This document shows positions 7,704-50,649 of a DNA stretch of 64,000 nucleotides, in pieces; the stretch's first letter is position 1, and every line of letters begins with the position of its first letter. The stretch is from Bryum argenteum (Eukaryota; Streptophyta; Bryopsida; Bryales; Bryaceae). The notes under the pieces were generated by a model, which saw only the letters and a list, made by a program, of their open reading frames with translations, was not told the origin of the DNA and made no database searches. The stretch is taken from assembly GCA_037043015.1 (NCBI GenBank), contig CM073325.1, positions 11,945,001 to 12,009,000 on the forward strand, given 5' to 3'. The position numbers were made by a program, and so were the translations under genes.

Positions 7704-7868
7704 TTGGCCACAAAAGTGTCTATTCCCGAAAGGGGTGAGTAGTCTTGTATCAATGGACCCCTGTCCAGTGGACATCGGCTCATTGTCTTGACGAACAGAC
7801 ACTCTATTCACGCCGGCCTTGTAAAAGGACCGGAGTTCATATCTATCTATCTATCTATCTCATCTATC
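7704..7868 (+). mobile_element. Structured SINE-like retroposon, copy 1 (5'-truncated)
   Basis: The element is flanked by a perfect 13-bp target-site duplication, TTCATATTTATTT, at 7691-7703 and 7869-7881. It has GTGTCT at 7716-7721 pairing with AGACAC at 7797-7802, 87 nt across. Inside is the tetraloop hairpin CCC-GAAA-GGGG. After the invariant ATTCACGCC comes a 3' hairpin (CCGG-CCTT / AAGG-A-CCGG, 7813-7833), and the element ends in an (ATCT)n tail. The flanking duplication and microsatellite tail are what LINE-driven retroposition leaves behind. No open reading frame is present. Confidence 0.85.
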
Positions 7869-7881
7869 TTCATATTTATTT

Positions 7882-46500: not shown

Positions 46501-48629
46501 AATAGCCACTGTAGTTGGTATGTGATATTGGTGTGTAGCGTGGAAAAGAATCAATGCTCTGATGAGATTGAGATAGACAAGCCTATAAGCAAGCACTTGT
46601 TTCATTAGGGAACTCAAATCAAGAAGTTGGGTAATCATACAATATGTCATAGTTATAGTGAAAAAATTCTAACAATAAAATGTGATTGGTATGGTTTTGA
46701 ATAGAGATAACAAACATAAGTAGGTTAGTGGTTATAAAACTGTTAAGAAATATTTGTCTTCTACAATACATGTACTGCTATTGGTCAACTACAATATTCC
46801 TTGATTGGCACCTGCCTCTCACTACTTGCTTTTTGGGGTTTTTAACATTTGACCTTGGGATGCTACTTGGATAAAATTTTGGATAAAACTTTGTCAATGA
46901 AAATGCTATACATGGGTGGTGAAAACTGAGAAGTGTGAGTGACAGTTGTAAGGAGGCAAATAATAACTTATAATACAGGTGGTTAGTAAGCTATCAAGTG
47001 TCAGTAAGTCAAGTGAGTACATTTGGAGGGGATGTCTAGGAGCAGGCAGTTCAGAATCCCATCACAAAAACATGACAAATCTCATGCTGATTCTAGTAGT
47101 ACAATGTTTTAAAAAAATAGAGAATCAGGCAACACAGGCTAAGTCCTCATTTGAGTGATGGGTACAGTAAAAATTCTGGCAGGCCATGCAGATTGAACCA
47201 ATCACTAGAATTGATATCACCACGAATTGCTGGATGGCAGGCTGTCCTTATGCATAATTGAGTGATTTGATAGTACTCTCTTCCTCCCAAGTTGTGGTGT
47301 AGCTGCTATTCAAACTTGCTCTCAATGGTGTGTTTTGATACAAGTAGAACAAAATTTCCTGTAGAAAACAGCAAGATCTTCAAATCAAAGAAAACCAAAT
47401 CTCCCTTCTTGGGGCTCACAAGCAAGGACGATGTTCAATGAGGAGCTGTTTAATTGGACTTCTGCAACCATTATTCAGGTAGGCTGCAACAATTATTTTG
47501 TACAATTCTTCTTAACCTCATTTACTCAATTATTATAGTGTGTATAGAATTTCAAATATCAATGATGTCTTGGGTTCTGAAAGCATTTCATCCACTCATG
47601 TGTGCATGCCTTAAGGCTTTCACTGTTCCTAAAGTATCCACTATTGTAAAGGAGATATGTTGTATTTTTCATGTTCATACTGTACTAGCAGAGTCGGCGG
47701 AAAGTACTCCTGTGCATAAATGTCAAAAAAACGGGGATTCTTTTTTACAAATTTCTTAGAAATATTTTCTGTAATAAAGTATACAAAGACATCAACTTTC
47801 AAGCTGTAATCTTTCGTAAAATATCATAGAAGACAAAGAACTCCAATCATATCTTAAAACCATCGTGAAGAAAGTACTTAGTAGACCTACCCTCGGAGGT
47901 ATACTCAAGATACTTTCCCACTACTGTAGTGATGAAAGAAGTTAGATCTTTACTTGAATATCCAATAGTTAAAAGCTCACATGGAAATGATCCAAGTGAC
48001 TGTAAACCACCGTGTCAGATAATGCACGAAAGATACCCAAAGCAGATGAAAGCTCAATGATGAACTTTTCAACTTTTCTTTTTAGTACTCCATAGAAGTG
48101 GTTGCAAGTTGCTTGCACCCACTTCCAAAAAGAAAAAAAGATGAAATGACAAAACTCACAGGACCCTTTCTACTTTCAGCTGTAAAAAGAAAGGAACCAG
48201 GATATGATTGGTATTTCACACGCTTGGAACAGACTTGATATCATTGCAAATGGCTACCCAAGGTGCGCTTTAATTTTTTCCTCTCAAGCAACCATTAAGT
48301 AATTGCCAACACAATGGTCAAAAGCTGGTCAAATTTACAAAATTTTATCACTTTGGTCAGAAGACACGATGCTAAACTTTTAACACAATTTGCAATTTGT
48401 ATTTTGCAGAACATTCCAAGTGCTTCACGACACATTTCTGACATCAAACTTTGCTTTAATGTGAACAAACATGCAGGAATGTTTGTTGGCTCTGGACAAG
48501 AATGGAGGAGGTAAGGCATCATCATTGACTGTAGTTGGAAATTGGAATAGGACCTTAGAGCAAGCCTCATGGAATTGTGATAAAATGCTTATGTACCGGC
48601 TGTTGAATTGATAGGATTAGAATATCAAG
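43587..48629. other. Long intergenic stretch without a recognised gene
   Basis: The part next to 43.6 kb must hold the first exon and promoter of the transporter. A 138-codon plus-strand frame at 43753-44169 has no recognisable domain. I see no RNA gene. The region between 44.2 and 48.6 kb contains only short frames, AT tracts (for example about 46450-46485) and no clear terminal repeats. Confidence 0.5.
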
Positions 48630-50649
48630 CTACATCTCTTCTATCTCTTGATCGTAATTGAGGTGCACCTCCTGCTTCGAAATATCATCCCGCACAAACA
48701 TGGGGTACATTTTACATTTCAAACGCTCGTCTCTAAACACGGGCATGATACGACCTTGTTGCCAATATTGCTCATTTAGTCTCTTGTTCAATGAGTCCGT
48801 GGAAATGTAGAGTTGTCGCTCCTTTATCAAGGTGGAGTCCCAGTAGCTCCATCCTTTGGGTGGCCTTTTCTTCTCCGCAGAAATCTGTCCGTAGCAAATA
48901 TATTAAGAAAGCTATACTTCAACAATCTCATATCATCATACAATATGCTCTGACAATGTTAGTTAGGGTGGCCCCATTGGTGGTAGGATAGGTGAGGTTG
49001 TACGAGTGATATTAAAAAGGTGAGAGGGGTGATATTACATAGGTTAAATGTGTGTGGGGACACATGTAGATAGATAGATAGATAGATAGATAGATAGATA
49101 GATAGATAGATAGATAGATAGATAGATAGATAGATAGATAGATAGATAGATAGATAGATAGATAGATAGATAGATAGATAGATAGATAGATAGATAGATA
49201 GATAGATAGATAGATAGATAGATAGATAGATAGATAGATAGATAGATAGATAGATAGATAGATAGATAGATAGATAGATAGATAGATAGATAGATAGATA
49301 GATAGATAGATAGATAGATAGATAGATAGATAGATAGATAGATAGATAGATAGATAGATAGATAGATAGATAGATAGATAGATAGATAGATAGATAAGAA
49401 CGCCAATCTCCAATAAGAATTGGCGTGAATACAGCGTCTGTTCGTAATGTCTTTACCGCGATGGCCACAGGACAAAGTGGTAAAAGAGCAAAACTACTAA
49501 CCCCTTTCGGGAGTAGACACTAAACTCTACAGGTGACTGTAAATGGACTAGACTATAGTAAGCAAGATAAGACTATTTACGTGGCGGGGTGTTTGGCATT
49601 GTCATGTGTGGTTTAATTGGGAGTTAAGTGGGTTTGTAGTCACCAAGTCATGTTGTCCTAGGGTGGTTGAGGTGTGGGACGATTGTGATTGTGCTGGTCC
49701 GAGTTCGAACCTCAATGGGGGACACATGTACATTCTAGTAAGTAATCTTGGAATGCAATGAGGAAACCGCTTGTATTTCTTTCATCACAAAACGATCAAG
49801 CTCCTTACACCTAACATGGAGAAACTCAAGTTCAACTCCTAACTATCTTTTCAAGCCAAATAGGCTTTTTGTTGTTTGGAGCAAGCTAGTTGAAGGTATT
49901 AAAGTCAATATTTTTGCCAAAGATTTTTACAAGGTATTTCCTATACTACTAGGTGTGTGTAGAGAAATTTGCAATGTCAAATTCCAATTTTAAAGTTTTT
50001 TAGTGCAAAAGTTGGTTTTCAAACCCTAGGCGGGCAGAAAGAAAAAAAACATTGTGAAGATTTCCTTGAAATTTTATAAAAACAAGCTTTGAAGTTTTTA
50101 AGATTTTCACAAAACATTTTGGCACAAACTTTGAATGTTATGACCTTGCAAATGATAAACATCCTAGGGTCAATTTTTGGACGAGTGACTAGATCTTACT
50201 TACAAGATCTTACGGTCAATCCAAATCTAAGAATAAAAAATTTTGGTTCACACTCCCAGTAGTGCATAGAGGTAGAAATTTCAGTTTTGAGGTTTCACGC
50301 TCCAAAAACACACAAGGAAATTCATGGGGTGAAGAAAATATATAGTTTTGGATGGAATGAAGTATACCGTTCCATCGAGGTTATATACAAGAGGAGGGTT
50401 CGGGTTGCCCGGGAACAAACTCGGTTTCACAGTATCTGGTGCAAACCCAGCTTCATCCACATCAGTCTCCAATAGTATGTACTGATGGTTGAGGTATCTT
50501 TCCACAAAGGAGACTCGTGGTGGTGGCCGAAATGCGAGCTCCAAGATGGCATCGATGATGTCCATTGCCCATATACTAACATCCCATTCCTCTGCAAAAA
50601 CCAACCACCCCTCATAAGATCCATCAAATTCAAAATTCATACATTGCAT
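48630..50649 (-). CDS. Two-exon gene of unknown function
   Basis: Exon 1 (50368-50649) ends at a GTATAC donor and exon 2 (48630-48884) starts after GGACAG, both in phase 0, giving 178 residues. I do not recognise the family. The protein is acidic and rich in aromatic residues, with blocks EGWLVFAEEWDVSIWAMDII, RPPPRVSFVERYLNHQYILL and, in exon 2, PPKGWSYWDSTLIKERQLY and MYPMFVRDD. No signal peptide or membrane segment is seen. Both exons have codon-like composition and no breaks, unlike the relics nearby. The 1.48-kb intron holds retroposon copy 3 and the GATA array. The start could also be the ATG at 50640, and further upstream exons are possible. Confidence 0.5.
49069..49396. repeat. (GATA)n microsatellite, about 82 units
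   Basis: The run is almost perfect. It is the 3' tail of retroposon copy 3 and sits inside an intron. All long open frames here are artefacts of the repeat. Confidence 0.97.
49069..49717 (-). mobile_element. Structured SINE-like retroposon, copy 3, longest, with B box
   Basis: The element is bracketed by the perfect 13-bp duplication GGGGACACATGTA (49056-49068 and 49718-49730). On the minus strand it begins just before GGTTCGAACTC, a good match to the RNA polymerase III B box and able to form a tRNA T-arm. The shared core follows: GTGTCT (49515-49520) with AGACGC (49434-49439), 87 nt across, the CCC-GAAA-GGGG hairpin, ATTCACGCC and a 3' hairpin (CGCCAAT/ATTGGCG, 49401-49425). It ends in a tail of about 82 TCTA units. 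The A box is absent, so the 5' end is probably truncated. Confidence 0.85.

Follow-up and report, generated by a model that had tools for sequence, protein, structure and literature searches.

What is the RNA core shared by three short retroposon copies in a 64,000-nucleotide stretch of the genome of the moss Bryum argenteum (GenBank assembly GCA_037043015.1, contig CM073325.1, positions 11,945,001 to 12,009,000; hereafter the window), and which elements carry it? An initial annotation made from the letters of the window had proposed a covarying RNA domain in a single family of SINEs (short interspersed elements). Our analysis indicates that the core is very probably a conserved domain of the 3′-untranslated RNA of a moss LINE (long interspersed element) family, carried also by a tRNA-like SINE, and that it would serve the LINE reverse transcriptase (RT) as a template handle.

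The existence of three copies with an 87-nt core, in which pairing is kept while bases change, is confirmed by their stems and by their flanks. The closing stem P1 reads GTGTCT/AGACAC, GTGTCC/GGACAC and GTGTCT/AGACGC in copies 1, 2 and 3, respectively, and spans 87 nt in all three. Identical 13-nt direct repeats (target site duplications, TSDs) bracket each copy and differ in sequence from copy to copy, thus each copy is a separate insertion. Copy 1 (7704–7868, plus strand) is recognisable as a 5′-truncated LINE 3′ end with an interrupted (TATC)n tail. Its TSDs lie at 7691–7703 (TTCATATTTATTT) and 7869–7881, and its core at 7716–7840 (P1 arms 7716–7721 and 7797–7802, 3′ hairpin at about 7810–7836; 133.7 bits, E 2.9e-33). 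Copy 2, on the plus strand at 28048–28259, a slight correction to the initial 28050–28260 (the positions of copies 1 and 3 stand), is a 5′-truncated tRNA-like SINE with a (TCTA)n tail. The TSDs are at 28035–28047 (TGAAGCTATACTA) and 28260–28272, and the core is at 28121–28248 (P1 arms 28121–28126 and 28202–28207; 115.6 bits). Copy 3 (49717–49069, minus strand) is likewise a 5′-truncated LINE 3′ end, from a different subfamily. Its core occupies 49396–49520 (P1 arms 49520–49515 and 49439–49434; 124.1 bits), and its TSDs are at 49718–49730 on the 5′ side of the element (TACATGTGTCCCC, read on the minus strand) and at 49056–49068 on the 3′ side. The long (TCTA)n tail (49067–49396, minus strand) holds 82.5 perfect copies of the 4-nt unit, with 100% matches by Tandem Repeats Finder; these bounds overlap the core and the TSD by 1–2 bases. 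Searched with a covariance model of the core, for which 37 copies were used, the window yields these three copies and, as next best, a match of 15.6 bits; as the model was trained partly on the window copies, this result rules out further clear copies and is not an independent discovery.

As judged by sequence, copies 1 and 3 are 5′-truncated 3′ ends of an RT-encoding LINE, and copy 2 belongs, in truncated form, to a SINE that is about 370 nt long and has tRNA-like A and B boxes together with the same 3′ core. The initial SINE label therefore holds for copy 2 and fails for the other two. Copy 1 is 100% identical across 145 nt to a locus (L010) that starts 2.2 kb downstream of a match to the Pfam domain PCIF1_WW in an open frame on the same strand (C5:14810383-14810787). 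Copy 3 is 100% identical (rounded) across 330 nt to L040-L042, and PCIF1_WW matches lie 2.1 kb upstream of two of these loci, again on the same strand, at C2:23467134-23467532 (L040) and C4:26234660-26235058 (L041). Copy 2 is 99% identical across 151 nt to L002-L008.

The LINE is a non-LTR (long terminal repeat) retrotransposon, with a LINE-type RT, 5′ truncation and TSDs of variable sequence. One locus (L069) encodes RT (PF00078, 1.3e-28), PCIF1_WW (8.9e-14) and RNase H (PF00075, 2.6e-14). The two frames that hold these domains overlap, and the core of L048, a locus overlapping L069, follows about 0.5 kb downstream; upstream frames of family members run into an RNase H-like part and a cysteine-containing part. 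In another (L110), matches to apurinic/apyrimidinic endonuclease (APE)-like domains precede the RT (PF14529, 1.9e-5; PF03372, 1.2e-3), both under the Pfam cut-offs; PF03372 is also precomputed in a number of RT homologues. No restriction-like endonuclease is found by Pfam in the L069 and L110 stretches, each of them less than a whole element. The relatives of the RT in the PDB are R2 and L1 proteins, the closest being R2 (9nl2, E 2.3e-35). Of 198 RT homologues, 120 are listed, and the closest of these are metagenome-derived proteins (P0001-P0030, from JGI and ENA contigs) with 58–78% identity, perhaps from other mosses in environmental samples. Those with names are from the green algae Parachlorella, Haematococcus and Pleodorina (34–46%), and further ones are an entry from a metagenome-assembled genome of Agrobacterium (37%) and turtle sequences (29–30%). 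Residues 204–212 of the L110 frame, ahead of the endonuclease region, read GDIESNPGP, presumably a 2A-like word, and the metagenomic relative P0029 has GDIQPNPGP. In the 3′ untranslated region (UTR) of the LINE, upstream of the core, we also observe the words GGGATTCGAACTCGGACC and GGGAATCGAACCCGGACC and variants of them, at about 49711-49695 (minus strand) in the window and in several of L010-L014 and L046-L068. We take these to resemble an antisense tRNA T arm; ARAGORN and Rfam report no tRNA in the loci tested.

The link between LINE and core can be approached from the protein side, as picking LINEs by protein avoids selecting them by their RNA word. From 209 candidates, 150 PCIF1_WW matches were scored and 40 sampled (the first 20 picked for variety, the second 20 mostly down the list), with 1.0–1.2 kb downstream being read. 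A core of over 100 bits follows PCIF1_WW in 19 of the first 20 and 17 of the second 20, i.e. in 36 of 40 LINEs, and is oriented with the LINE sense strand in all 36. Leaving aside L111, L112 and L118, which were known from earlier core searches, the core is present in 33 of 37 LINEs.

Full-length SINEs (L003, L004, L006, L007 and L008) are about 370 nt long and begin near AAGGCACCACAAGCC, right after the direct repeat; direct repeats of 11–15 nt are found at all eight SINE loci. Measured against the A/B box consensus, the SINE head carries A-box-like and B-box-like words 32 nt apart with two mismatches in total, a match attained by none of 3,000 composition-preserving shuffles. The word chosen from the head occurs at 1,908 places in the genome and a core word at 1,767 (up to 2 mismatches), the reversed patterns at none.

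In the shared core, two elements lie within P1, namely the GNRA hairpin P2 and the long, irregular arm P3 (parts a, b and c), and P1 is followed by the linker ATTCACG, the hairpin P4 and a short-repeat tail; junction and P4 together extend about 126 nt. Among 106 copies, the P1 span is 87 nt in 91 (mostly-gap columns being dropped), and the loop of P2 is of GNRA type (GAAA, GTAA, GAGA or GGAA) in 88. The words GAAC..GAC..ATTCACGCC, first described as invariant, are near-invariant, the exceptions being L103-L107 and L109, which have CTAATCACGCC. In P3a, the variants GTCTTG/CAAGAC, GTAGTG/CACTAC, GTAATG/CATTAC and GTCGTG/CATGAC are all paired, and the most frequent form, GTTTTG/CATTAC, seen in 44 of the 106 copies, contains two U-U mismatches. 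The pattern GAACNGACNCTNNATTCACGCC occurs at 1,886 places in the assembly (258.8 Mb in 25 contigs), i.e. one per about 137 kb, against none for the reversed pattern, and the core is thus not a chance likeness. Second cores are seen on L060, L103 and L016; in L103, a SINE-like core (457-583) lies 17 nt past the LINE core, as would result from insertion of a SINE in the LINE tail.

Support for the structure is collective and does not extend to individual pairs. The alignment from which the model was built holds 37 of 46 distinct cores, taken from 60 of the 68 loci that contain the search word, and for these RNAalifold gives 31 pairs, with changes on both sides in 11. The lowest-energy folds of copies 2 and 3 agree with the model, P1, P2 and the 3′ hairpin being present. 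Three (TTC)n-tailed copies that had no part in drawing the structure behave variously: L071 adopts the planned fold unaided, L076 does so with a P1 of 5 bp, and L074 only when P1 is enforced. Across the 40 named pairs, 89.4% of cells are paired, as against 39.5–48.7% when the partners are slid by 1–3 columns, and four of the five measures in this analysis lie above nearly all shuffles.

Tests that take account of the tree used a null in which parsimony-placed substitutions are redistributed among the paired columns with column rates preserved. They were applied to 72 copies (74 of 109 model matches, 72 of them distinct, leaving out identical copies, matches under 60 bits and, by hand, four at 70–99 bits, namely L013:89, L017, L018 and L084), and later to sets of 92 and then 106 copies, all in MAFFT alignments that were not model-fitted. 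Pair-preserving double changes on the same branch number 13 in 72 copies (null maximum 9, 400 simulations), 13 in 92 copies (maximum 10, 600 simulations) and 19 in 106 copies (null mean 4.4, maximum 12, 500 simulations), and 6 in the 32 distinct cores of protein-picked LINEs (mean 0.9, maximum 4, 300 simulations); these runs overlap in most sequences and are not independent. In the 106 copies, 86.0% of leaf cells are paired (null maximum 80.6%), and the 40 proposed pairs have covariation scores that average 14.2 (null maximum 4.85, 50 simulations). Retention of pairing exceeds the null in P1, P2, P3b and P4, where 0–1 of 500 simulations are as high. G-U cells outnumber A-C cells (136 to 42 in one set, 316 to 122 in another, of 92 copies), an excess that marks the sense strand.

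A number of results weigh against the reading of the core as a structured LINE domain shared with a tRNA-like SINE, and these are best considered together. Four of the 40 protein-picked LINEs (L101, L125, L128 and L129) have no core in the fetched stretch. The lowest-energy fold of copy 1 (and L009) has P1 and the 3′ hairpin P4 and lacks P2, and those of L046 and L061 lack P1 when the full 126 nt are folded. One of the five measures compared with shuffles, further pair types, is not above them (453 of 500 as high), and pairing retention in P3a and P3c lies within the null (188 and 180 of 500). The structure was drawn partly from sequences under test. ARAGORN reports no tRNA gene in seven loci, five of them full-length SINEs, and Rfam no tRNA at E up to 1 in eight loci, four of them full-length SINEs; being without a recognisable tRNA structure, the SINE head is termed tRNA-like. 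The best identity between SINE and LINE cores among the 106 cores, with 40 of the 150 scored LINE places sampled, is 78% (L121). No LINE core compared is nearly identical to the SINE core, and the exact partner LINE was not identified among them, so that either this partner is unsampled or recognition is mostly by shape.

Further points concern covariation, and they bear on the possibility that the conservation merely reflects shared descent of a few recent LINE lineages, with lineage splits giving an appearance of covariation. When all 7,503 column pairs are tested in the manner of R-scape, none is significant at E <0.05, in 72 or in 106 copies; two pairs pass when the test is restricted to the 40 proposed pairs. 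Few branches hold much of the signal, and single changes in stems have no clear pair-keeping bias (78 of 175 preserve the pair, 45%, against 41–44% under the null). Shared descent is nevertheless a very improbable explanation, given that the double-change counts exceed every simulation in four runs (400, 600, 500 and 600), protein-picked LINEs included, and that G-U is favoured over A-C. With per-pair covariation negative across all columns, the case rests on the aggregate tests. The initial claim of a covarying RNA domain is accordingly upheld for the structure in aggregate and not for single pairs, and the absence of significant covariation that had been named as counting against it is seen in the per-pair tests over all columns and not in the aggregate ones. 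The other such outcome, a LINE 3′ end, is what copies 1 and 3 proved to be, yet this explains the RNA domain and does not remove it.

Two further explanations differ on what the core does and on what carries it. The core might be a self-cleaving ribozyme or an RNA-stability element that shapes the ends of LINE and SINE transcripts and not an RT handle, as its compact junction fold, near-invariant unpaired GAAC and ATTCACG and GNRA loop are features that occur in ribozymes. We regard this as very improbable: the comparison with Rfam proposed in the initial annotation yields no family at the gathering threshold across the 64-kb window, no ribozyme is found at E up to 1 in eight core-bearing loci, and the insertions continue through core and hairpin to the repeat tail, and therefore the RNA that was copied was uncut within the core. 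A single SINE family whose members differ in their 5′ parts would account for the common 3′ core, TCTA-type tails and TSDs of the three copies, but is hardly credible, and for copies 1 and 3 it is refuted, since the relatives identical to them have LINE protein domains 2.1–2.2 kb upstream in the same orientation and since in many loci the family similarity upstream reaches the end of the fetched 1.6–1.8 kb. When the same eight core-bearing loci were searched for known RNA families at E up to 1, the only matches were to mir-204 and IMES-2; each lies outside the core and falls well short of its cut-off. A search of a viral contig collection with one exact pattern gave no occurrence.

If the core is a 3′ domain of the LINE, the LINE RT would bind it and so start target-primed reverse transcription close to the repeat tail; the SINE would have acquired this domain and be copied in trans. 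The tail unit changes among copies (L070-L076, L090-L130), being (ATCT)n, (AT)n, (ATT)n, (ATTT)n or (TTC)n, while the core is constant. A constant core with a variable tail unit, target sites that differ between insertions, truncation at the 5′ end and the sharing of no more than the 3′ part with a SINE are as predicted by target-primed reverse transcription that reads the 3′ RNA. Recognition by shape together with a few fixed words would fit the identity of at most 78% between SINE and LINE cores.

R2 elements have a structured 3′ UTR that serves target-primed reverse transcription, and the moss LINE is related to them through its RT. Unlike R2, the moss family has three differing target sites in the window, a putative APE-like endonuclease, a repeat tail, and a SINE sharing its 3′ end. 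The closest known systems appear to be the RandI/Dualen LINEs and SINEX SINEs (PMC3747384, PMC4640811). According to Ohshima 2013 (PMC3747384), the tails of green-algal RandI LINEs are (ATT)n and (CTATTT)n, and SINEX SINEs of Chlamydomonas share RandI/Dualen 3′ ends. As in the moss, these are green-lineage LINEs with short-repeat tails and a 3′ end common to SINEs; RNase H, reported there, is found here, and among the RT homologues listed the eukaryote-named ones at 34–46% are green algae. The moss system differs in its host, in its (ATCT)n, (AT)n, (ATT)n, (ATTT)n and (TTC)n tails and in its junction-type 3′ core. Dualen further has a restriction-like endonuclease besides APE, with none found by Pfam in the two partial moss LINE stretches. 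Stringent SINE/LINE pairs, such as eel UnaL2 and maize ZmSINE2 with LINE1-1_ZM, likewise carry a LINE 3′ tail on the SINE, and the plant L1 pair has a conserved 3′ stem with compensatory changes; in that paper (PMC3747384) their tails are described as hairpins, in contrast to the moss three-way core and hairpin of about 126 nt, and only the L1 and RTE clades are given for flowering-plant LINEs. The moss SINE core also differs by 22% from the nearest LINE core compared, unlike the stringent pairs.

The PCIF1-like domain encoded by the LINE may be more unusual than the RNA core. This PCIF1/CAPAM-like methyltransferase-fold domain lies between RT and RNase H (LINE frames L069:2979-5201 and L110:5070-5900). 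At the aligned site where we take NPPF to be the motif of PCIF1-like domains, the two moss copies aligned have HPHN, and metagenomic and algal relatives have SPPF, NPEY, NPPS and others. The domain thus differs from the cap-specific m6Am methyltransferase PCIF1/CAPAM (6irz, 6irv) both in its place within a LINE and in its motif. A wider scheme can be offered as a tentative and rather doubtful one: the moss LINE, nearer to green-algal LINEs than to the L1 and RTE LINEs of flowering plants, might pick its RNA at both ends, by a shape-read 3′ RNA (the SINE core being more than 20% diverged with the fold kept) and by a catalytically altered PCIF1/CAPAM-like domain reading the capped 5′ end.

Elsewhere in the window, no tRNA genes were found, and a transporter frame at 41125-43019 (minus strand) has relatives of up to 83% identity; among the 120 of 929 matches listed, Ceratodon purpureus is at 76%, Physcomitrium patens at 70% and named vascular plants at about 36–41%.

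SINE/LINE pairs with common tails are already known, either as hairpins in plant L1 or as RTE and algal RandI tails (PMC3747384). From the abundance of the moss SINE, the handle seems to act, or to have acted, in trans. Mosses are a plant group with genetic tools. The cores described here would be naturally diversified template handles for a LINE RT, whose many paired variants predict which stems matter, and, through the PCIF1-like domain of the LINE, cap recognition by a retrotransposon becomes a question open to testing.

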